22,230 nt of DNA, from IMG/VR virus record IMGVR_UViG_3300021437_000091, positions 1 to 22,230 of that record. One strand, written 5' to 3'. The stretch comes from a virus. Under the pieces are notes generated by a model. That model was not told the DNA's origin. It saw only the letters and a list, made by a program, of their open reading frames with translations, and searched no databases. Of the stretch, positions 1,086 through 12,126 are shown one piece after another (within the stretch, counting starts at the first letter, position 1; each line of letters starts with the position of its first letter). The position numbers and the translations under genes are program-made.

Positions 1086-4000
1086 GCGGCCAGACCATCA
1101 GCACCAGCGAGACGCGCATCGAGGCGCTCACGCTGCAAAGCAGTTCCTACGGCGTCGTCATCCCCAAGGTCTACGGCGTGTGCCGCATCCCCGGCAATCT
1201 GCTGTGGTACGGGGGGTTCAAGGCCGTCCCGCACACCACCACGCAGGGCGGCAAGGGCGGCGGCGTCAAGACGCAGAGCACCTCTTACACCTACACCGCC
1301 AGCGTGCTGATGGGCCTGTGCCGCGGGCCCATCCTCAATGTGCGCACCGTCTGGCGCGGCAAGAACAAATTCAGCACCGGCTACTTTCCGGGCCAGGTGC
1401 AGACCGCCACGGACGTCTGCACCGTCTCCGGCGGCCTGCAGTACACGGTGGCGAATGCCAGCGGGTTCCTGCAGGTGCAGTCGGTGCGCTACACCTACTA
1501 CGACCAGGTGACGTCGGGCGTCATCGCGCGCCAGGCCACCATGGCCAATGGCCGCGACTACACGGTGTCCGCGGCCGGCGTGCTGACCTTCGCCGCGCAG
1601 TTCGCCGGCAAGTCGGTGAGCATCGAATACCAGTACGCCACCGGCTCCCCCACGGCGCCACCGCTCGGGCTGACCCTGGCGGCCGGCAATATCGGCCAGG
1701 CCACCTGGTCCCCGCTGACCACGTTCACGCCCACGGGCGGCGCGGCCGGCGACAACGCGGTGGGCTACAGCGGGCTGGCCTACGTGGCCGCCGCCGACTA
1801 CGACCTGGGCAGCGGTGCCCAGATCGAGAACCATACTTTCGAGGTGCAGGGGGCCATGGCCTACCACCTGGGCAGCAGCGTGCCGGACGTCGACCCCACC
1901 AAGGTGCTGCTGGACCTGCTGTGCGACTCCACGGCCGGCGCCTCATTCCCGCCGACGATGCTGGACATCTGGGCCGACTGGAGCAGCTTCTGCCTGGCGA
2001 ATGGCCTGCTGGTGAGCCCGGCGCTGACCGAGCAGCAACGCGCCTCGGACATCGTGGCCACCATGGCCAGGCTGACCAACACCGGCCCCGTGTGGAGCGC
2101 CGGCCGGCTGCTGATGGTGCCCTACAGCGACGACGCGGCCAGCGGCAACGGCGCCACCTTCACGCCCAGCCTGGCACCGGTCTATGACCTGGACGATGAC
2201 TGCTGGCTGTCCAGCGGCAGCGACGCCCCGCTGCGGGCCAAGTCCAAGACGCCGGCCGACCGCTACAACCACGTGCGCGTGGAGTACCTGGACCGCGACA
2301 ACCAGTACAACCCCACCATCGCCGAAGCCAAGGACCAGGCGGACATCGACGCGTTCGGCCTGCGCTCCATGGAGATCGTCAGCGCGCACTGGGTGTGCAC
2401 CGTGGCCGCCGCCCGCCAGGTGGCCCAGCTGCTGGTGCAGCGCAGCCTGAACGTCGTCAGCGAGTACTACGCCACGCTGCCGTGGCATTTCGCGCTGCTC
2501 GAGCCCATGGACCTGGTCACGCTCACCGACACCGCGCTCGGCTTGTCGCGGCAGCTCGTGCGCATCACCACCATCGAGGAATCCGAGAACGGCGACCTGG
2601 CCATGACCTTCGAGGACGCCTCGGCCGCGGCGGCTGCGGCCGTCTATGCGGCGCAGGCCCCGGCGGGCTACCAGGCCGACTACAACGCCAGCCCGGGCAA
2701 TGCCGACACGCCCGTCATCTTCGAGGCGCCGGCAGACTGGAGCAGCACCGGCGTCATGCTGCTGGTGGCCGCGCGCGGCACCACCGCGATGTGGGGCGGC
2801 TGCCAGGTGTGGGTGAGCCTGGACGGCAGCAACTACCGCAAGATCGGCACCGTGTACGGCGGCGCGCGCTATGGCACGCTCAGCGCCGGGGCCAGCGGCG
2901 GCGCCAGCACCATCGCCGTGCAGGGCCTGGGCACGCAGCAACTGCTGTCGGGCAGCGCGGCGGATGCCGCCAAGCTGTCGACCCTATGCTACGTCGGCGG
3001 CTCGAACCCGGAGTACCTGGCCTACTGGACGGCCACCTACACCGGCAGCTCCGGCGCCAATGCCTACACCCTGGGCGGCCTGGTGCACGCCGCCTACGGC
3101 ACCGCGGCCGGCGCGCACAGCAGCGGCGACACATTCGTGCGCGTGGACAGCGACGTGGCGCGCAGCGACGAGCTGGACGTGGCCTATGTCGGCCAGACCG
3201 TCTACGTCAAGCTGCTGAGTTTCAACCTCACCGGCGGCGGCCAGCAGGGCCTGGCCGACGTGTCGCCCTACACCTACACCGTCACCGGGGCGATGGCGGC
3301 ATTGCGCCCCGGCGTCAGCGGCAAGGGGCTCACGCTGCTGGCCGACTCGATCATCTTCACCTACCCGTCCGGCGGCGGCGTCAGCCCGTCGTCGATCACG
3401 CTCACCGCGCTGCGCAAGGGGCTGCTGAGCGGCACCGTCACGTGGGCGGTCGTGGCCGGCACCGTCACGCTCGCCGGCTCGGGGGACACGCGCAGCATCG
3501 CGCCGGCGTCTATGACCACCACCACCGCCACCATCAGCGCCACCATCACCGACGCGGTGGGCACCTACACCGACTACGTGACCATCACCAAGGTGGTCGA
3601 CGGCGCGGCCGGCCTGCAGACCGCGACGGTGATGATCTACAAGCGCGCTGCGTCGGCGCCCGCCCTGCCGTCGGCCACGGCCACCTACACCTTTGCCACC
3701 AGTGCGCTGACCGGCCTGAACAACGGCTGGACCACCTCGGTGCCGGCGGCCGACGGCAACCCCCTGTATGCGTCCGCCGCCACCGCCAGCGCCACGGGCG
3801 CCACCGACACCATCGCGGCCGGGGAATGGGCGTCCGCCGTCATCCTGGCGCAGGATGGGGCGGCCGGCGGCACCGCCGCCAGCGTCTTCATCTACCAGCG
3901 CGCCGCCTCGACGCCATCCCTTCCGTCGGCCACGGCCACCTACACCTTCGCCACCGGCGCGCTGACGGGGCTGAACAACGGCTGGGCCGCCACCGTGCCA

Positions 4001-6470: not shown

Positions 6471-6507
6471 AGTCCTTCTCGCTCCGGATACAGGGGCCTA
6501 ACCCGTC

Positions 6508-6515
6508 GCTCGAAC
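6508..6515. repeat. 8-bp target site duplication, left copy
   Basis: GCTCGAAC here is repeated exactly at 9124-9131, immediately outside the two ends of the ISL3-family element. Eight base pairs is the usual duplication length of the ISL3 family. Confidence 0.85.
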
Positions 6516-6540
6516 GGCTCTCCGGATTTCCATGTTGAAA
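6516..6540 (+). repeat. left terminal inverted repeat of the ISL3-family element
   Basis: GGCTCTCCGGATTTCC followed by ATGTTGAAA. The outer GGCTC and CGGATT blocks match the right end; the region between and inside them has diverged. It reads directly into the leader of the first passenger gene. Confidence 0.75.
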
Positions 6541-6592
6541 CGTCCATGATGGTTTATAGTCTGAAAACGGATTAACGTGTGGAAAGTAGACC

Positions 6593-6997
6593 ATGATTGA
6601 CCTGATGCAAGACCCCAAGCGCCCCTCCACTTTCATTGCCAACACGGGTGGCGAGACACCGGCTGAGCAGGTGCTGCGGAAGTTGGCGTGCTGGCTTGGA
6701 GCTGGTGGGTACAACGCCCCGACGGTTGATGCCGACGTGTTCCACGACAAGATCATCTGGGGCATAGGTGAGCTTGTTCAGGAGACGAACAGGCTTCAGC
6801 TTGAGGTTCATCGCTACCGAGACGCCTGGAACACCCAACGCCAGATCAACGAACTGATCAGACCCTCGTTCACGCACGAGGAGGTCATGAACGCGATGCA
6901 CGAGGCAGAAGTCCCGGACGGCCCCTTCAAGCTGATGCTGATGATCATGGACACCATCCGCGCCGACCGAGCTGCGGACATGGGCGACGGTGGTTGA
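6593..6997 (+). CDS. hypothetical passenger protein of the ISL3-family element
   Basis: A 134-residue protein starting at ATG 6593, with GGAAAG 7 bases upstream. The N-terminus reads MIDLMQDPKRPSTFIANTGG. The middle is helical (IGELVQETNRLQLEVHRYRDAW, near residues 57-78), and a second helical part includes THEEVMNAMHEAE. No known family recognised; the composition fits small phage or mobile-element proteins. First of three genes in tight order ahead of the transposase, so it probably shares its transcript. Confidence 0.65.
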   Translation: MIDLMQDPKRPSTFIANTGGETPAEQVLRKLACWLGAGGYNAPTVDADVFHDKIIWGIGELVQETNRLQLEVHRYRDAWNTQRQINELIRPSFTHEEVMNAMHEAEVPDGPFKLMLMIMDTIRADRAADMGDGG

Positions 6998-7036
6998 GCC
7001 ATGCCCTCGAACGACATTGAACCAAAGGAGATGACG

Positions 7037-7300
7037 ATGGAACGCGAGCAGGTTTGGGGCGTGGCAGTGATGGCGCCGAAGCAGAAGGAGGCCGCGCAGA
7101 AACACTGCTTCGGCGACTGCGGGAAGATCAGCATGGCAGGCGCCATCAACGACGAGGTGACCGGTGGCTTGTTCGTCTGCTGCCAGCCGACGTGCCCCTA
7201 CGAAGGGACCGTGATCCCGAACTACGGCGAGACGATGAGCTTTGGTCGCCCGCACACCGTGCACCTGCGCCTGCTGGAGCCGGTTGGAGAAGGCGCATGA
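7037..7300 (+). CDS. hypothetical Cys-rich passenger protein
   Basis: An 87-residue protein. I place the start at ATG 7037 rather than 7001 or 7031 because AAAGGAG (7024-7030) lies 6 bases before it. The sequence begins MEREQVWGVAVMAPKQKEAA and has Cys pairs HCFGDC and VCCQPTC about 28 residues apart, consistent with a small zinc-binding fold. The stop overlaps the next ATG as ATGA. No family recognised; function unknown. Confidence 0.6.
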   Translation: MEREQVWGVAVMAPKQKEAAQKHCFGDCGKISMAGAINDEVTGGLFVCCQPTCPYEGTVIPNYGETMSFGRPHTVHLRLLEPVGEGA

Positions 7301-7707
7301 GCGCCAGCAACTGGCGGCAGGGAGTGTGCGAGCGGGTGTCACTGCGAATCAACCGCGGGCTGAACGGCGGCGATTGCCCTGGTGCTGGCGCACTCGGCGA
7401 GTGCCCAGCCGTGTATGAGATGAGCCACGACGATGACGATGCAGGCGCCTCGTTCACGGCGGAGGTGTACCTGGCAACCCGTGCGCAACGCTTCACGGCG
7501 GCGACGCTGGCCGAGTGGATAGAAGCCTGCGGCGGCATTGAGCCTTGCATCAGCCATGTGATTCACGATCCTTACAACGGGACGGCTGATGGGGTCTGTT
7601 GCGACGGAGCGCGCCATTGGCGGGCGGAATTCCGGGTCGAACGCGACAAGCAGCCCACGTCTGCACCAGACGTGAGCCTGAATCGACAATCGGTGAATGA
7701 CCACTGA
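7297..7707 (+). CDS. hypothetical passenger protein ahead of the transposase
   Basis: A 136-residue protein starting at ATG 7297 in an ATGA overlap with the previous stop. It contains several Cys (GVCERV, GDCPGAGALGECPAVY, EACGGIEPC, GVCCDG) and an acidic DDDDAG run. The stop at 7707 overlaps the transposase start (7697) by 11 bases, so translation of the transposase is probably coupled to this gene. I do not recognise the family. Position and overlap argue for a regulatory or accessory role in the element, but that is inference only. Confidence 0.6.
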   Translation: MSASNWRQGVCERVSLRINRGLNGGDCPGAGALGECPAVYEMSHDDDDAGASFTAEVYLATRAQRFTAATLAEWIEACGGIEPCISHVIHDPYNGTADGVCCDGARHWRAEFRVERDKQPTSAPDVSLNRQSVNDH

Positions 7708-9112
7708 CATCCTCGACCTTCACGGGTGGACCGTCCTTGCAAAGCGCCTCGAAGACCGTGAGTACGAGCTTGAAGCTGAGTACACCGTCAAGCCCACCGC
7801 CTGCCAGAAGTGCGGCGTGCTGGATCGGCTGTACCGGCACGGCACCAAGGACACCATCTACCGTGACAGCCCCATCAGGGGCCACGCAACCCGCATCCTG
7901 GCCCGCGTGCAGCGGTACAAGTGCCGGGAGTGCGGCGAGACGTTCCTGCAGCCCCTGGCGGGCATCCAGGAGGACCGCCGCATGACTGCCAGGTGCGCCG
8001 AGTACATCAAGGAGCAGTGCCTCCGCGACACCTTCACCAGCATCGCTGACCACGTTGGTTGTGACGACAAGACCGTGCGCAACCTGGCAGGCGAGTACAT
8101 CGCCACGCTGGACGCCGCCTACAAGCCTTCCCTGCCGGCCTGGCTGGGCATCGACGAGACGCAGATCGACGGGAAGATGCGCTGCGTCATCACCGACATC
8201 GGCGGCCGGCGCCCCATCGAGATGCTGGCCGACCGGGACAAGGGCACCCTGACCACCTGGCTGCACCGGCACAAGGAGCGCAAGCACGTCGAGGGCGTGG
8301 CCATCGACATGTGGCGCCCGTACCGCGACGTAGCCGGCACGATCTTCCCGGGCGTGCCGGTCGTGATCGACAAGTTCCACGTCGTGCGAATGGCGAACTA
8401 CTGCATGGAGCGCGTGCGCATCCGGGTGGCCAAGACCCGCACCAAGGAGGTCCGGCGCGACTGGATGCGCTCCAAGGCCATCCTGAACAAGCGCGAGTCC
8501 ACCCTGACCGAGAAGCAGCGGTTCAACCTCGACATGTGGCTGGCCAACGAACCCGAGCTGGCCGACGCCTACCGGCTCAAGGAGAGCTTCTACGGCATCT
8601 ACGGCATGAAGAAGCCGCAGGCTCTGGCCGCCTATGACGCCTTCAAGGGCGACGTCCCCCAGGCGCTCAAGGCCGACTTCAAGGTGCTGCTGACCGCGAT
8701 GCGCAACTGGCGCCCGGAGATCACCGCCTACTTCGACCACCCGATCAGCAACGCCTACACCGAGGCACTGAATGGGGTGGCCAAGACGATCAACCGTGCT
8801 GGCCGGGGCTACAGCTTCGAGGTGCTGCGAGCGCGGCTGCTGTTCGGTTCCAAGCCCCGAATACAACCACCAAAGGAGACACCCATCATGACCCGTGGTG
8901 AACAAGCACTGCAGCGCGCCCAACTCCTCAGGGCAGGGAATGGACGGTGCCAGTCGTGCAGCGGAGCGTTTGAACCGGCCTCGCTGTTCGTCCACCTGAC
9001 CCCTGCCGTGGTCCCTGGCGAACATCGAAAGCCGATGCTTCTCTGCCAGAACTGCCACAGACGATTCCACACGGATGAACTCAGCGGTCATGCCTCAGAT
9101 TCCACACACTAA
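7697..9112 (+). CDS. ISL3-family transposase with C-terminal HNH-like zinc module
   Basis: A 471-residue protein. It has an N-terminal zinc ribbon (C36-x2-C39, C76-x2-C79), a helix-turn-helix near 110-132, then the DDE catalytic core with D153 in GIDETQID, D225 in VVIDKFHVVR and E356 in NAYTEALNG. This is the ISL3 (DDE_Tnp_ISL3) order. The transposase part ends near residue 385. Residues about 398-471 form a second module: CQSC (418-421), VHLTP (H433), LLCQNCHRRFH (C450, C453, H454, H458), an HNH-nuclease-like zinc knuckle in which the usual first D/H metal ligand before H433 is Val. ATG 8888 (M398) has its own AAAGGAGA 8-14 bases upstream, so the module may also be made separately. The protein excises and inserts the element. 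Confidence 0.88.
   Translation: MTTDILDLHGWTVLAKRLEDREYELEAEYTVKPTACQKCGVLDRLYRHGTKDTIYRDSPIRGHATRILARVQRYKCRECGETFLQPLAGIQEDRRMTARCAEYIKEQCLRDTFTSIADHVGCDDKTVRNLAGEYIATLDAAYKPSLPAWLGIDETQIDGKMRCVITDIGGRRPIEMLADRDKGTLTTWLHRHKERKHVEGVAIDMWRPYRDVAGTIFPGVPVVIDKFHVVRMANYCMERVRIRVAKTRTKEVRRDWMRSKAILNKRESTLTEKQRFNLDMWLANEPELADAYRLKESFYGIYGMKKPQALAAYDAFKGDVPQALKADFKVLLTAMRNWRPEITAYFDHPISNAYTEALNGVAKTINRAGRGYSFEVLRARLLFGSKPRIQPPKETPIMTRGEQALQRAQLLRAGNGRCQSCSGAFEPASLFVHLTPAVVPGEHRKPMLLCQNCHRRFHTDELSGHASDSTH
8888..9112 (+). CDS. possible internally initiated HNH-like protein, 74 aa
   Basis: In-frame ATG 8888 within the transposase gene is preceded by AAAGGAGA at 8872-8879, a strong ribosome-binding site. 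The product would be MTRGEQALQRAQLLRAGNG followed by the CQSC...LLCQNCHRRFH zinc module. HNH proteins often begin with an R-L-G/N-x-C-pattern before the first CxxC, so this looks like an originally free-standing gene that became joined in frame to the transposase. Whether it is translated on its own is unknown. Confidence 0.4.
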   Translation: MTRGEQALQRAQLLRAGNGRCQSCSGAFEPASLFVHLTPAVVPGEHRKPMLLCQNCHRRFHTDELSGHASDSTH

Positions 9113-9123
9113 TCCGTTGAGCC
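9099..9123 (-). repeat. right terminal inverted repeat of the ISL3-family element
   Basis: On the minus strand the end begins GGCTCAACGGATTAGTGTG. It shares GGCTC and CGGATT with the left end. The transposase stop codon (9110-9112) lies inside it. Confidence 0.75.
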
Positions 9124-9131
9124 GCTCGAAC
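9124..9131. repeat. 8-bp target site duplication, right copy
   Basis: Exact copy of GCTCGAAC at 6508-6515. It covers the end of the attC right arm and the start of the spacer to the right core box, so the insertion cut the attC between its stem and its crossover site. Confidence 0.85.
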
Positions 9132-9138
9132 GGACGGC

Positions 9139-9540
9139 CTACGGCCGCCGTTCAGCTCCCACGTTGGGCGGCTCGCTGTTCGCCAGTTTCAAAAGCACGG
9201 CCGCGTGGCAGGCGTCATCCTCGTATGGCCCAGGGCGCTTGCACCAGCAGGCCAGGTTCTTGCCGCGCAGCTCGGCACGGGCGGCAGCCACCAGCAGTGC
9301 GTTCTGTGGCGCGAATCCCAGGTAAATCTGCCAGGAGTGGCGGGCGTTTTTCGTCACCGTGCCGTAGGGGTTCGTCGCGCCCACCTTGAACGGGTTCCCC
9401 CACTTGGTCGTGCGATCAACCTTCACGGTGTTGGGTGGCATTTTCCAGCCCTTGGCGCGGCTTAGTTGCACGCGCTCCGGCTCCAGCCGCCCAACTGGCG
9501 CATCGAGCGGACCCTCAACGGCCCCGGTGTCCTGTTCCAT
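9139..9540 (-). CDS. DUF4326 domain protein (cassette gene using an attC-borne start)
   Basis: A 133-residue protein with the DUF4326 signature: RVQLSRAKGWKMPPNTVKV then DRTTKWGNPF, and a C-terminal GKNLACWCK with CHAAVLLKLAN. The family is common in phages and mobile DNA, and its activity is unknown. The ATG at 9540 lies in the hairpin loop of attC d, 6 nt after AGGAGG (9552-9547). Residues about 5-15 (TGAVEGPLDAPVG) are encoded by the attC right arm. The domain itself starts only at residue ~22, so the extension is recombination-derived. A native GTG could be at RVQL, preceded by CCGGAGCG. The stop lies in the loop of attC e. Confidence 0.85.
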   Translation of the reverse strand: MEQDTGAVEGPLDAPVGRLEPERVQLSRAKGWKMPPNTVKVDRTTKWGNPFKVGATNPYGTVTKNARHSWQIYLGFAPQNALLVAAARAELRGKNLACWCKRPGPYEDDACHAAVLLKLANSEPPNVGAERRP

Positions 9541-9591
9541 CTTCAACCTCCTGCGCGGGCCGTTGGGGTCCGCTCATGCTTATCGTTAGGT
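9489..9591 (-). repeat. attC site d, long form, 103 bp
   Basis: Minus strand: left box ACCTAAC (9591-9585), spacer, 19-bp arm GAGCGGACCCCAACGGCCC, a ~32-nt loop, right arm identical in reverse complement except for one extra unpaired base (A on the minus strand, T9515 on the plus strand), spacer, right box GTTGGGC (9495-9489). Both boxes fit RYYYAAC/GTTRRRY. A single extrahelical base in an otherwise perfect stem is characteristic of integron attC sites, where it selects the bottom strand. Closes the methyltransferase cassette. Confidence 0.9.
9538..9552 (-). promoter_or_regulatory. Shine-Dalgarno and ATG in the loop of attC d
   Basis: AGGAGG (9552-9547), 6-nt spacer, ATG (9540-9538), all inside the unpaired loop of the attC hairpin. 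The layout is the same as in attC b. It is the only ATG with a good ribosome-binding site for the DUF4326 gene and decides its start. Confidence 0.8.
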
Positions 9592-9592
9592 T

Positions 9593-10267
9593 TCACAACA
9601 GCCCCTCTTGCACAGGCTGTCTTGGTTCTTCAGGCGGCAGTAGCGTGCCCTGGGCCTGGGCGCGGGCTATGCGCTCGCAGGCGGCATCGAAGTAGCCGCG
9701 CTCGCGCTCAATGCCAGTGAACGCCAGCCCGAGCTGTACGCACGCCACGCCAGTGCTACCGCTGCCCATGAACGGGTCCAGCACCGTCGCGGGCCTGCCG
9801 GCTTGGTCCAGGCACCACGCCATCAACGGCACCGGCTTCTGCGTCGGGTGGTAGTGCTTCCCTTCGGTCGCCAGTTGCCCGTGGCTGTAGTCGAAAACGC
9901 GGTTCGGCTTGTCCAAGTTTGTCCAGGCGTGCTCGGCTTCGCTGCTGCTCCAGTTGCGCAGGATCTTGTTCCACGACAACCAGCACCGCGAAGGCTGCAA
10001 CAGGTAGAACTGTCCTCCCCACACCACGGCATGTTCGGCTTTTGTCAGCGCCAGTTCCACGCCGTCGGCCACTATGGCGCGGTCCCACTCCGGGGCGCCG
10101 CCGTAGTAGTGCTTCCCCCAGCCGCTTTTGCCAGGCCGGTGCAGGTGCTCATACACGCCATAGGGCGGGTCTGTCACCACTGCAGCAAAACGCGGCAGCA
10201 GCGGCAGCACCTCGCGGCAGTCGCCGTGCCACAGTTCCGCGTTGCCGATCACCACTTTCTCTGCCAT
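9593..10267 (-). CDS. orphan DNA methyltransferase (beta-class, N6-adenine or N4-cytosine)
   Basis: A 224-residue protein. ATG 10267 is preferred because GAAAGG lies 5-10 nt upstream; the adjacent ATG 10270 is too close. It has motif IV DPPYG at residues 33-37 (adenine/cytosine amino-methyltransferase active site) before motif I-type DPFMGSGSTG at 164-173 (S-adenosylmethionine binding), the beta-class order. HPTQKP (about 142) precedes it. No restriction endonuclease is adjacent, so it probably protects phage DNA or acts in regulation. It is a single-gene cassette. The stop TGA (9595-9593) overlaps the extended left box of attC d. The frame is open in phase from the GTT crossover codon to its own start. 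Confidence 0.92.
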   Translation of the reverse strand: MAEKVVIGNAELWHGDCREVLPLLPRFAAVVTDPPYGVYEHLHRPGKSGWGKHYYGGAPEWDRAIVADGVELALTKAEHAVVWGGQFYLLQPSRCWLSWNKILRNWSSSEAEHAWTNLDKPNRVFDYSHGQLATEGKHYHPTQKPVPLMAWCLDQAGRPATVLDPFMGSGSTGVACVQLGLAFTGIERERGYFDAACERIARAQAQGTLLPPEEPRQPVQEGLL

Positions 10268-10293
10268 CATCACCTTTCGTTGCGCCGAGTGAA

Positions 10294-10353
10294 ACCTAAC
10301 CTGTCCATCAAGCGGACCAGCCTTCGGCCGGCCGCTTATGTCCAACGTTGTGC
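10294..10353 (-). repeat. attC site c, short form, 60 bp
   Basis: Minus strand: left box GCACAAC (10353-10347), 9-nt spacer, AAGCGG-CCGGCC, loop GAA, GGCTGG-T-CCGCTT (one unpaired T, one G-T pair), 9-nt spacer, right box GTTAGGT (10300-10294). The right box fits GTTRRRY; the left box deviates at one position. The 60-bp size and shape match short attC sites such as that of aadA cassettes. It closes the 95/105-aa cassette; the TGA of the 105-aa gene is in its right arm. Confidence 0.9.
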
Positions 10354-10625: not shown

Positions 10626-10909
10626 GTCAGTGCCTCCCCATGCACAAGCACCGCGCGGCAGAACGCGCGCAGTTCGTCGGCCGTGCACAGTAGCGAGTCA
10701 ACACCCATCGGCGCACACTCGCCGATCAGTTCGTCAATGGCCGTAGTGCCAATGCCGTCCTCGGCCAGTGCAAGCGCCTCGGCCTCGTGCCACGGCATGC
10801 CCGTCTGCTCGTGCAACAGCTCGGCGCGCGCCAGCCATCCGCGCTTCGGAACCAGCGGCACAACTGACGGTTCGAGCGGACCCTCAACGGCCCGGCTACT
10901 TTGTCCCAT
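10622..10909 (-). CDS. hypothetical cassette protein, 95 aa (attC-borne start)
   Basis: ATG 10909 lies in the loop of attC b, 6 nt after AGGAGG (10921-10916). Residues about 4-18 (SSRAVEGPLEPSVVP) are encoded by the attC right arm and crossover site, followed by cassette-borne sequence LVPKRGWLARAELLHEQTG. The core is MPWHEAEALALAEDGIGTTAIDEL in two parts, followed by a Cys-containing C-terminal helix region. GTG within the GTTGTGCC crossover box could be an internal native start. The start overlaps the end of the DUF551 gene by 14 nt. Function unknown. Confidence 0.65.
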   Translation of the reverse strand: MGQSSRAVEGPLEPSVVPLVPKRGWLARAELLHEQTGMPWHEAEALALAEDGIGTTAIDELIGECAPMGVDSLLCTADELRAFCRAVLVHGEALT

Positions 10910-10959
10910 CTTCCACCTCCTGTGCGGGCCGTTGGGGTCCGCTCAACCTAGCGTTAGGG
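10858..10959 (-). repeat. attC site b, long form, 102 bp
   Basis: Minus strand: left box CCCTAAC (10959-10953), spacer, 19-bp arm GAGCGGACCCCAACGGCCC (10944-10926), ~32-nt loop, right arm 10893-10874 perfectly complementary apart from one extra base (T10884 on the plus strand), spacer, right box GTTGTGC (10864-10858). Both boxes keep AAC and GTT but each misses the consensus at one or two positions. The stem is identical to that of attC d, so the two sites share ancestry. Closes the XF1762-DUF551 cassette. Confidence 0.88.
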
Positions 10960-11210
10960 CGCTTGAGCACTAGCACGGGTGCTGGTGGCGACGGCTGCCA
11001 GAACCACGCATCTACCGCCAGCCCCGGAACGCTGAAACTGGCAAGCCCCGCTCCGTCTTCGCCGCCGCTCCTGTACCGCCCGCCCAATACTCGACCGTTC
11101 AGGTAGCCCATCGGCAGCAGCTGGTCAACGCGAACCACGAAAAGCACATCCTGGCCGTCCCTTGGCAAGCGTTCGGCGCAGTCAATCCAATCTCCGAGAT
11201 CGTCGTTCAT
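10896..11210 (-). CDS. DUF551-like protein
   Basis: A 104-residue protein. ATG 11210 is chosen because it makes an ATGA overlap with the XF1762 stop. The sequence DWIDCAERLPRDGQDVLFVV near the N-terminus and WFWQPSPPAP downstream follow the DUF551 pattern (W-S-xx-RLPxxGxxVL ... W-xPLPxxP), a small domain common in phage early regions, function unknown. The last ~20 residues (ARLSGPQRPAQEVEDGTK) are encoded by attC b's left arm and loop, hence not family-conserved. Second gene of its cassette. Confidence 0.8.
   Translation of the reverse strand: MNDDLGDWIDCAERLPRDGQDVLFVVRVDQLLPMGYLNGRVLGGRYRSGGEDGAGLASFSVPGLAVDAWFWQPSPPAPVLVLKRPNARLSGPQRPAQEVEDGTK
10907..10921 (-). promoter_or_regulatory. 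Shine-Dalgarno and ATG in the loop of attC b
   Basis: AGGAGG (10921-10916), 6-nt spacer, ATG (10909-10907) in the hairpin loop. The DUF551 reading frame terminates (TAG 10898-10896) 9 nt beyond this ATG, so termination and initiation occur in the same loop. Confidence 0.8.
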
Positions 11211-11785
11211 CCAACCCATCTCCATTTGCCGCCCACAAGGTCATCGCCTACGGGTTCAACAGTGCGTCCCGGCCGGCTGTGCCACATCGCGGCGCTTCCG
11301 CCAGCGTCCTCTTTGTCAAGCCTGAATCCAGCGGCGCGCAAGCTGGCGCCGCCTTCCTCGGGCAGCGTGTAGGTGTAGATCGGCGTGTAACCCATCGCTC
11401 GCGCGGCCTTGCGCGCAGCGCCGTAGAGCATGCTGCAAGCGTTGCGCGTGCCATCGGCACACAGGCGGGTCACTTCGGCGGCCTTGCCGTTGTCCAGTCG
11501 CGGGGCTACGGGTCGGCCAACAATCGCCACGCCTACCAGCGCCCAGGCTTCTCCATTCGCAGCCCGCGTGCAGGCTTCCACGCCCACCGCGAACTTGTGC
11601 CCCACCACCGGGCGGCTGTGGCGGTGCCGCTGGCGCACAAACTCGTTCGCGGTCTTCAGGTCACACGGCACCACACGCAGCAGCGGCGCGCCACCGTCCG
11701 CGCGCTCCGGCACCAGCGCCCTAACACGCAGGTCGAGGCGAGGCCCAACGGCCTCGCGCACCTGTGGGTGTGGCTGCTGGGTCAT
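11207..11785 (-). CDS. XF1762-family protein (GNAT-like fold suspected)
   Basis: A 192-residue protein with the family hallmarks: FVRQRHRHSRPVVGHKFAVG, then VGVAIVGRPVAPRLDNG, VTRLCADGTRNACSMLYGAA, and YTLPEEGGASLRAAGF. XF1762-family proteins are frequent in phages; the AAxxxAxxxGYxxIxTYT pattern resembles acetyltransferases, but no activity is established. The ATG 11785 lies in the loop of attC a, in an ATGA overlap with the stop of the 114-aa gene. Residues 1-36 are attC- and cassette-leader-encoded; the conserved domain begins near LRVVPCDLKTAN. First gene of its cassette. Confidence 0.88.
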   Translation of the reverse strand: MTQQPHPQVREAVGPRLDLRVRALVPERADGGAPLLRVVPCDLKTANEFVRQRHRHSRPVVGHKFAVGVEACTRAANGEAWALVGVAIVGRPVAPRLDNGKAAEVTRLCADGTRNACSMLYGAARKAARAMGYTPIYTYTLPEEGGASLRAAGFRLDKEDAGGSAAMWHSRPGRTVEPVGDDLVGGKWRWVG

Positions 11786-11818
11786 GGCCGTTGGTCCCGC
11801 CTCACCAGCACGTTGGGC
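11719..11818 (-). repeat. attC site a, long form, 100 bp
   Basis: Minus strand: left box GCCCAAC (11818-11812), spacer, arm GAGGCGGGACCAACGGCC, ~32-nt loop, arm that pairs with one unpaired base and two mismatches, spacer, right box GTTAGGG (11725-11719). The left box fits RYYYAAC; the right box misses the final Y. The stem shares its inner AACGGCC/GGCCGTT with attC b and d. Its left flank is identical over 17 nt (GCGAGCCGCCCAACGTG) to attC e. It is the first site of the array in gene direction; no matching cassette start is found upstream. Confidence 0.82.
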
Positions 11819-12126
11819 GGCTCGCGACGCACCCAGACCGGGCGCGGCGTCGTGCAGTCGCATGTAGCCAGGGCCATCGCGCACGACTCGCAGAAGTTCA
11901 GCAACTGGCGCGCGGCCACGCGGCCCGCTTCAGTCACCGTAAAAATGGGGTCGCCGCCGGAAAGTGGGTGCCCGTCGCGGCGCGTCATCAGCCCCTCGGC
12001 CACCAACGCCTGGCAGTGCGGGTAATCCGTGCTGCCGGGGCCGGTCACGAAGTGGTTGCGGTATTCGCGGTTGCTTCGGCCCAGGCCCAGTGCGTGCCGC
12101 AGGATGTCTTGCTGTTCGATATTCAT
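11782..12126 (-). CDS. hypothetical phage early protein, 114 aa
   Basis: Starts at ATG 12126, 2 nt after the stop of the ParB-like gene. Sequence EQQDILRHALGLGRSNREYR, then NHFVTGPGSTDYPHCQALV and GLMTRRDGHPLSGGDPIFTVTEAGR resembles a small protein I have seen repeatedly in betaproteobacterial prophage early regions (function unknown; winged-helix-like C-terminal pattern). CESCAMALATCDC could bind metal. The last ~15 residues and TGA are encoded by attC a's left arm and loop, so this gene sits at the joint between phage operon and cassette array: either the first cassette gene or a phage gene with an attC joined to its 3' end. Confidence 0.78.
   Translation of the reverse strand: MNIEQQDILRHALGLGRSNREYRNHFVTGPGSTDYPHCQALVAEGLMTRRDGHPLSGGDPIFTVTEAGRVAARQLLNFCESCAMALATCDCTTPRPVWVRREPPNVLVRRDQRP

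Follow-up and report, generated by a model that had tools for sequence, protein, structure and literature searches.

The window analysed here, a 22,230-bp stretch of DNA that makes up a complete IMG/VR virus record, carries phage genes for tail, holin, primase/helicase, neck, Mom-like and nucleotide kinase proteins. An ISL3-family element interrupts an attC site in this genome, and the locus has the following features.

6496-6502, + strand: attC box GCCTAAC, severed from its stem
6508-6515, + strand: target duplication GCTCGAAC, left copy, in the L'' arm of the attC
6516-9123, + strand: ISL3-family cargo element, 2,608 bp, with terminal inverted repeats, 8-bp duplication and transposase
6516-6539, + strand: left terminal repeat, which includes the first copy of the motif, CGGATTTCCATGTTGAA (element +8 to +24)
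6555-6560, + strand: probable -10 box TATAGT (element +40), directed towards the cargo; position kept in most relatives
6568-6584, + strand: second copy of the motif, CGGATTAACGTGTGGAA (element +53), a proposed operator for the transposase
6593-6997, + strand: cargo ORF 1, 134 aa; no Pfam or PHROG match
7001-7300, + strand: cargo ORF 2, 99 aa; no recognised family
7297-7707, + strand: cargo ORF 3, about 136 aa; no recognised family; its end overlaps the transposase start
7697-9112, + strand: ISL3 transposase, 471 aa (DDE_Tnp_ISL3, E 1.8e-57)
8879-9109, + strand: C-terminal tail of the transposase, CxxC..CxxC, weakly HNH-like (profile match to 4h9d)
9094-9123, + strand: right terminal repeat
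9124-9131, + strand: target duplication GCTCGAAC, right copy, which restores the L'' arm beside the stem
9132-9169, + strand: remainder of the attC, comprising the stem-loop and the box GTTGGGC (9163-9169)
9139-9546, - strand: DUF4326 ORF of the adjoining cassette, whose 3' end runs into the attC (Pfam, E 1.4e-21)

An ISL3-family element with three cargo genes

The ends of the element are GGCTCTCCGGATT on the left and, reverse-complemented, GGCTCAACGGATT on the right; as in other members of the ISL3 family, the terminal inverted repeats start with GG and are accompanied by an 8-bp duplication. Elsewhere on the + strand of the window, the duplicated octamer is found only at position 3000. Thus, the original prediction of an ISL3-family element with an exact duplication at 6508 and 9124 is borne out, since the ends are of the ISL3 type and the ISL3 transposase is intact. 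When the whole element was used as a DNA query against isolated phages, there was no match.

The transposase matches the NCBIfam ISL3 equivalog above its cut-off and has the DDE, Zn ribbon and HTH domains of the family, with an intact catalytic triad (D153, D204 and E356, invariant across 15 aligned sequences). After residue 385, the complete proteins from viral contigs have a tail with a CxxC..CxxC pattern, which is absent from the twelve plasmid and isolated-phage relatives that we compared. Over this tail, an alignment profile matched the HNH endonuclease 4h9d weakly (E 0.0038), and the tail varies among relatives; on these grounds, we go no further than the label "HNH-like zinc finger". 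In an AlphaFold model, the core has pLDDT values of mostly 80-95 and the tail is of low confidence, and the best PDB match is the ISCth4 transposase. Two related elements (L021:5481-6401 and L022:4519-5652) have lost the DDE core by internal deletion and have kept their ends and duplications; in these derivatives an open frame still joins the N-terminal zinc ribbon to the tail.

The left end of the element is organised in the same way in most of its relatives. A CGGATTAACGTGTGGAA-like motif lies at +8, a position shared by nearly all of them, and in most a TATAGT or variant near +40 is followed by a repeat of the motif at +53, with the first cargo gene typically starting near +62 to +87. The right end also has the motif, at +8. 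A consensus promoter scan of the left end called no promoter; from the conserved position of the TATAGT, we infer a promoter between the two copies of the terminal motif.

Three small ORFs, the cargo cistrons, precede the transposase gene. Genes unrelated to transposition thus lie inside the ends, as is the case for passenger-bearing insertion sequences. Searches of Pfam and PHROG assigned no recognised family or function to the window cargo, and a further search for relatives of the cargo found none. Residues 2-64 of cargo ORF 1 are 68% identical to a stretch inside an ordinary phage protein, suggesting that cargo is drawn from phage genes; one relative of this ORF (L168) is not bounded by element ends. 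Since the end of ORF 3 overlaps the start of the transposase gene, these two genes are probably translated from one message.

The cargo differs from element to element: from about +75 to the transposase gene, the sequences are unrelated, even between elements whose transposases are 87-99% identical. DNA methyltransferases are the cargo in five relatives, as C5 DNA methylases (L010, L022) or N6/N4 DNA methylases (L020, L032, L037). Other elements carry a NADAR protein (L030) or a PAPS-reductase-like protein (L055), and there are weak matches to a methyltransferase-like protein (L049) and a MazG-like protein (L002). In three elements (L015, L027, L047), a near-identical 62-aa ORF (METKPKHPGGRPKLPD...), possibly encoding a regulator of transposition, lies directly upstream of otherwise different transposases.

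The element splits an attC in a phage cassette array

Joining the flanks of the element (6496-6515 and 9132-9169) gives a 58-bp site, GCCTAAC-N44-GTTGGGC, with RYYYAAC and GTTRRRY boxes, an imperfect stem of 14 symmetric pairs and extrahelical bases. The right-hand copy of the duplication rebuilds the entire L'' arm. This site is the sole strict pair of boxes 50-75 bp apart in the rejoined window, and only 0.025 sites per window with an equally good stem are expected by chance (200 dinucleotide shuffles). Removal of the element therefore restores a 58-bp attC with both boxes, as had been predicted, and such a site is rare by chance. The prediction of a single unpaired T was incorrect in detail; there are two unpaired bases, six apart, which read C and A on the + strand and thus G and T on the - strand. 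An exact 24-mer search of IMG/VR viral contigs for the uninterrupted attC, which the original prediction had proposed to look for in other genomes, gave no match. Similarly, we found no attC after the gene in the eight best of 80 loci with DUF4326 relatives, and hence no empty site.

The crossover box of an attC is marked by the side on which the unpaired bases lie, a rule known from aadA7-type sites. In the rejoined attC, all unpaired bases are in the 5' arm of the + strand, which by this classical rule suggests that the crossover box is GTTGGGC (9163-9169), which stays with its stem, and that GCCTAAC (6496-6502) is the box that has been cut off. By contrast, the array genes are all on the - strand, and gene orientation would suggest the opposite polarity. 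The claim that the insertion separates the crossover box from its stem is correct in that the two boxes are split; on the polarity of the unpaired bases, however, the severed box would be the other one. Whichever polarity holds, 2.6 kb now separates the boxes, and, as judged from the arrangement of the site, the DUF4326 cassette should no longer be excisable through the interrupted attC.

Four further attC-like sites (9489-9591, 10294-10353, about 10858-10959, and 11719-11818) follow the interrupted one, making five between 6496 and 11818. In all five, most of the unpaired bases belong to the 5' arm of the + strand; three of the five have a C as the first unpaired base and, six bases on, an A as the second. 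A C with a second unpaired base six positions on is the pattern of classical attC sites such as that of aadA7. The shared pattern of unpaired bases supports a real array, apparently of the kind without an integrase; an integrase was sought among part of the ORFs, on a contig that may be partial, and there was no match. In two long attC-like sites (9489-9591 and about 10858-10959), the arms are near-identical and the start codon of the next ORF is inside the loop. The array also includes an N6/N4 methylase cassette (9593-10345) and a gene for a Mom-like DNA modification protein (PHROG 1384; 11207-11884).

The clade of the element was found almost only in viral contigs and prophages

The same six peptides, used as queries, matched 18 viral-contig loci, as against three loci among 84,980 genomes of bacteria and archaea. 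Two of the three genome loci, in Massilia, correspond to the viral records L009 and L011 (the same match), and the third, in a Lysobacterales genome, is close to helicase/primase genes of phage type. When genomes around these hosts were sampled (274, 399 and 398 genomes), the seed genome was the sole match at a strict threshold. Phylogenetic analysis placed 29 viral or prophage-type sequences in one clade (support 100/99), with the relatives from plasmids and isolated phages falling apart from it. The clade was found almost only in viral contigs and prophages, among collections of which the viral one was searched most deeply.

More distant relatives, laid out in the same way, occur in isolated phages. 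In Vibrio phage K256 (L153), a gene encoding a DNA methyltransferase lies ahead of the transposase gene, and the duplication is GAAAAGAG. The corresponding site is uninterrupted in a sister phage, K303 (L159), and the alignments on its two sides overlap by 8 bases where they meet, which is what one copy of the duplicated bases would give. This pair of genomes shows that, for distant kin of the window element, the unit is a clean insertion in phage DNA. Bacillus phage BSP9 also has an adenine methyltransferase gene ahead of an ISL3-type transposase gene. Pseudomonas phage HB2107-3I (L155:225-4231) has two tandem ISL3-type transposase genes, each preceded by a gene.

The insertion into attC looks incidental

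We gathered relatives of the transposase from viral contigs, genomes, plasmids and isolated phages, and then located the ends of their elements. Exact 8-bp duplications flank 21 elements, including the copy in the window; three others (L005, L006 and L010) have intact ends without an exact duplication. The original prediction had considered that other copies might have different ends; the ends proved to be common to the copies, and it is the target that differs. Only one of the 21 elements with a duplication, the window copy, is inside an attC, whether strict boxes are required or relaxed boxes with a stem. The other 20, whose duplications are A/T-rich, lie in ordinary phage DNA. An A or T occupies positions 4, 5, 6 and 7 of the duplication in 17, 19, 18 and 19 of the 21 elements, respectively, and the window duplication is an outlier in the family, being unusually G+C-rich, with C and G at positions 4-5. 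Because the window copy alone among the 21 sits in an attC, its insertion there looks like a single, incidental event, with no evidence of targeting.

We considered three other explanations for the position of the element. The first is that the lineage prefers safe sites, such that gaps between phage genes are favoured and the attC is one such gap. Indeed, the window copy has a cassette gene on either side, several other copies are at gene boundaries, and individual copies are found beside a terminator-like stem (L010), beside a LexA-like box (L015) and directly after a stop codon (L160). Nonetheless, in genomes packed with genes, selection acting on copies already inserted would produce an equal pattern; we consider a preference of this kind somewhat unlikely.

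A second explanation is that the ISL3 lineage recognises the attC hairpin, making it a new attC-targeting insertion sequence like the IS1111-attC group. That group, which includes ISKpn4 and ISPst6, was reportedly described by Tetu and Holmes in 2008. The window element has inserted into a good attC, with a duplication that spans the first extrahelical base. Moreover, an exact search with the left-end sequence found seven viral loci, four of them contigs already known, and in one of the seven (L160) the element is just downstream of a GCCTAAC, 7 bp away. The L160 sequence, however, is the stop codon of a gene in ordinary phage DNA, and the 10-kb locus has no other attC-like site or array. Given that none of the 20 other duplication-bearing copies is in an attC by strict or relaxed definitions, and that their duplications are A/T-rich, the proposal of a separate case of attC targeting by an ISL3 element is not supported, and we rejected this candidate; recognition of the attC hairpin by this lineage is very unlikely.

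Lastly, since the contig comes from a virus record, the junctions could in principle be an artefact or chimera of metagenome assembly, which is extremely unlikely since a misjoin would neither yield an exact 8-bp duplication at base-exact family ends nor rebuild an attC across the junctions.

Like the window element, members of the IS1111-attC group are positioned in attC sites. They differ in having a DEDD transposase (of the IS1111/IS110 type) rather than an ISL3 transposase, in making no duplication, in choosing their target with a guide RNA (PMC11187229), and in targeting attC recurrently, as opposed to once in 21 elements. Reading the attC landing as incidental avoids proposing a second attC-targeting family of insertion sequences from one example.

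Discussion

We consider it very probable that 6508-9131 represents one phage-borne, cargo-carrying ISL3 insertion that landed by chance in an attC between two phage cassettes. Transposition would be by an ISL3-type cut or circle mechanism, into A/T-rich octamers, and here the insertion splits the attC boxes, such that the site should no longer be usable by an integron integrase. We propose that the promoter predicted between the two motif copies at the left end transcribes the cargo and then the transposase gene as one operon, and that the transposase, made last, may bind the motifs and shut off its own promoter, thereby acting as a timer.

Phages are generally considered to contain few insertion sequences, so a clade almost confined to phages needs an explanation. 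Exchangeable cargo is probably what pays for the persistence of the lineage in phages, and the methyltransferases carried by several relatives would likely shield phage DNA from restriction. Methyltransferase cargo behind a conserved promoter is thus a testable explanation for a phage-dwelling clade, and transposition is a possible route by which phages trade counter-restriction genes without homologous recombination. We tentatively suggest, as a possibility somewhat short of even, that the lineage is a phage-specific shuttle for accessory genes, with a fixed promoter-operator slot, exchangeable and often anti-restriction cargo, a timer set by the last position of the transposase, and an HNH-derived tail by which the transposase is adapted to life in phages.

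The window lineage resembles ISL3 family members such as ISPst9 and ISPpu12 in its transposase domains, GGCTCT-type ends and 8-bp duplications. It differs from the family in the CxxC..CxxC tail past residue 385, the fixed left-end module of promoter and motifs, the cargo before the transposase, and the near-restriction to phages. A passage in one paper reports circular intermediates for ISL3 members, citing work on ISPst9 (PMC3812183). An ISL3 element with a passenger gene is already known, the fosB3 element of enterococci (PMC3812183), which has one cargo gene before its ISL3 transposase gene, GGGTAATCGGAT ends and an 8-bp duplication, and is about 2.4 kb long. Unlike the window element, it is plasmid-borne and lacks the CxxC tail, and its transposase is about 40% identical to that of the window. 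In the open-access literature searched, we found no paper that joins ISL3, phage, cargo and DNA methyltransferase. The apparent novelty is an ISL3 lineage that dwells in phages and combines a fixed regulatory slot with cargo that is exchanged and a transposase that has a zinc-finger tail.

Arrays of attC sites without an integrase (CALINs) are known from phages (Qi et al., 2023; PMC9892861), and the window array is similar to these in its location in a phage and in its methyltransferase cassettes, with no integrase match among the ORFs scanned. It differs from phage CALINs in that a transposon interrupts one attC and in that the direction of its genes is opposite to the polarity that the unpaired bases suggest.
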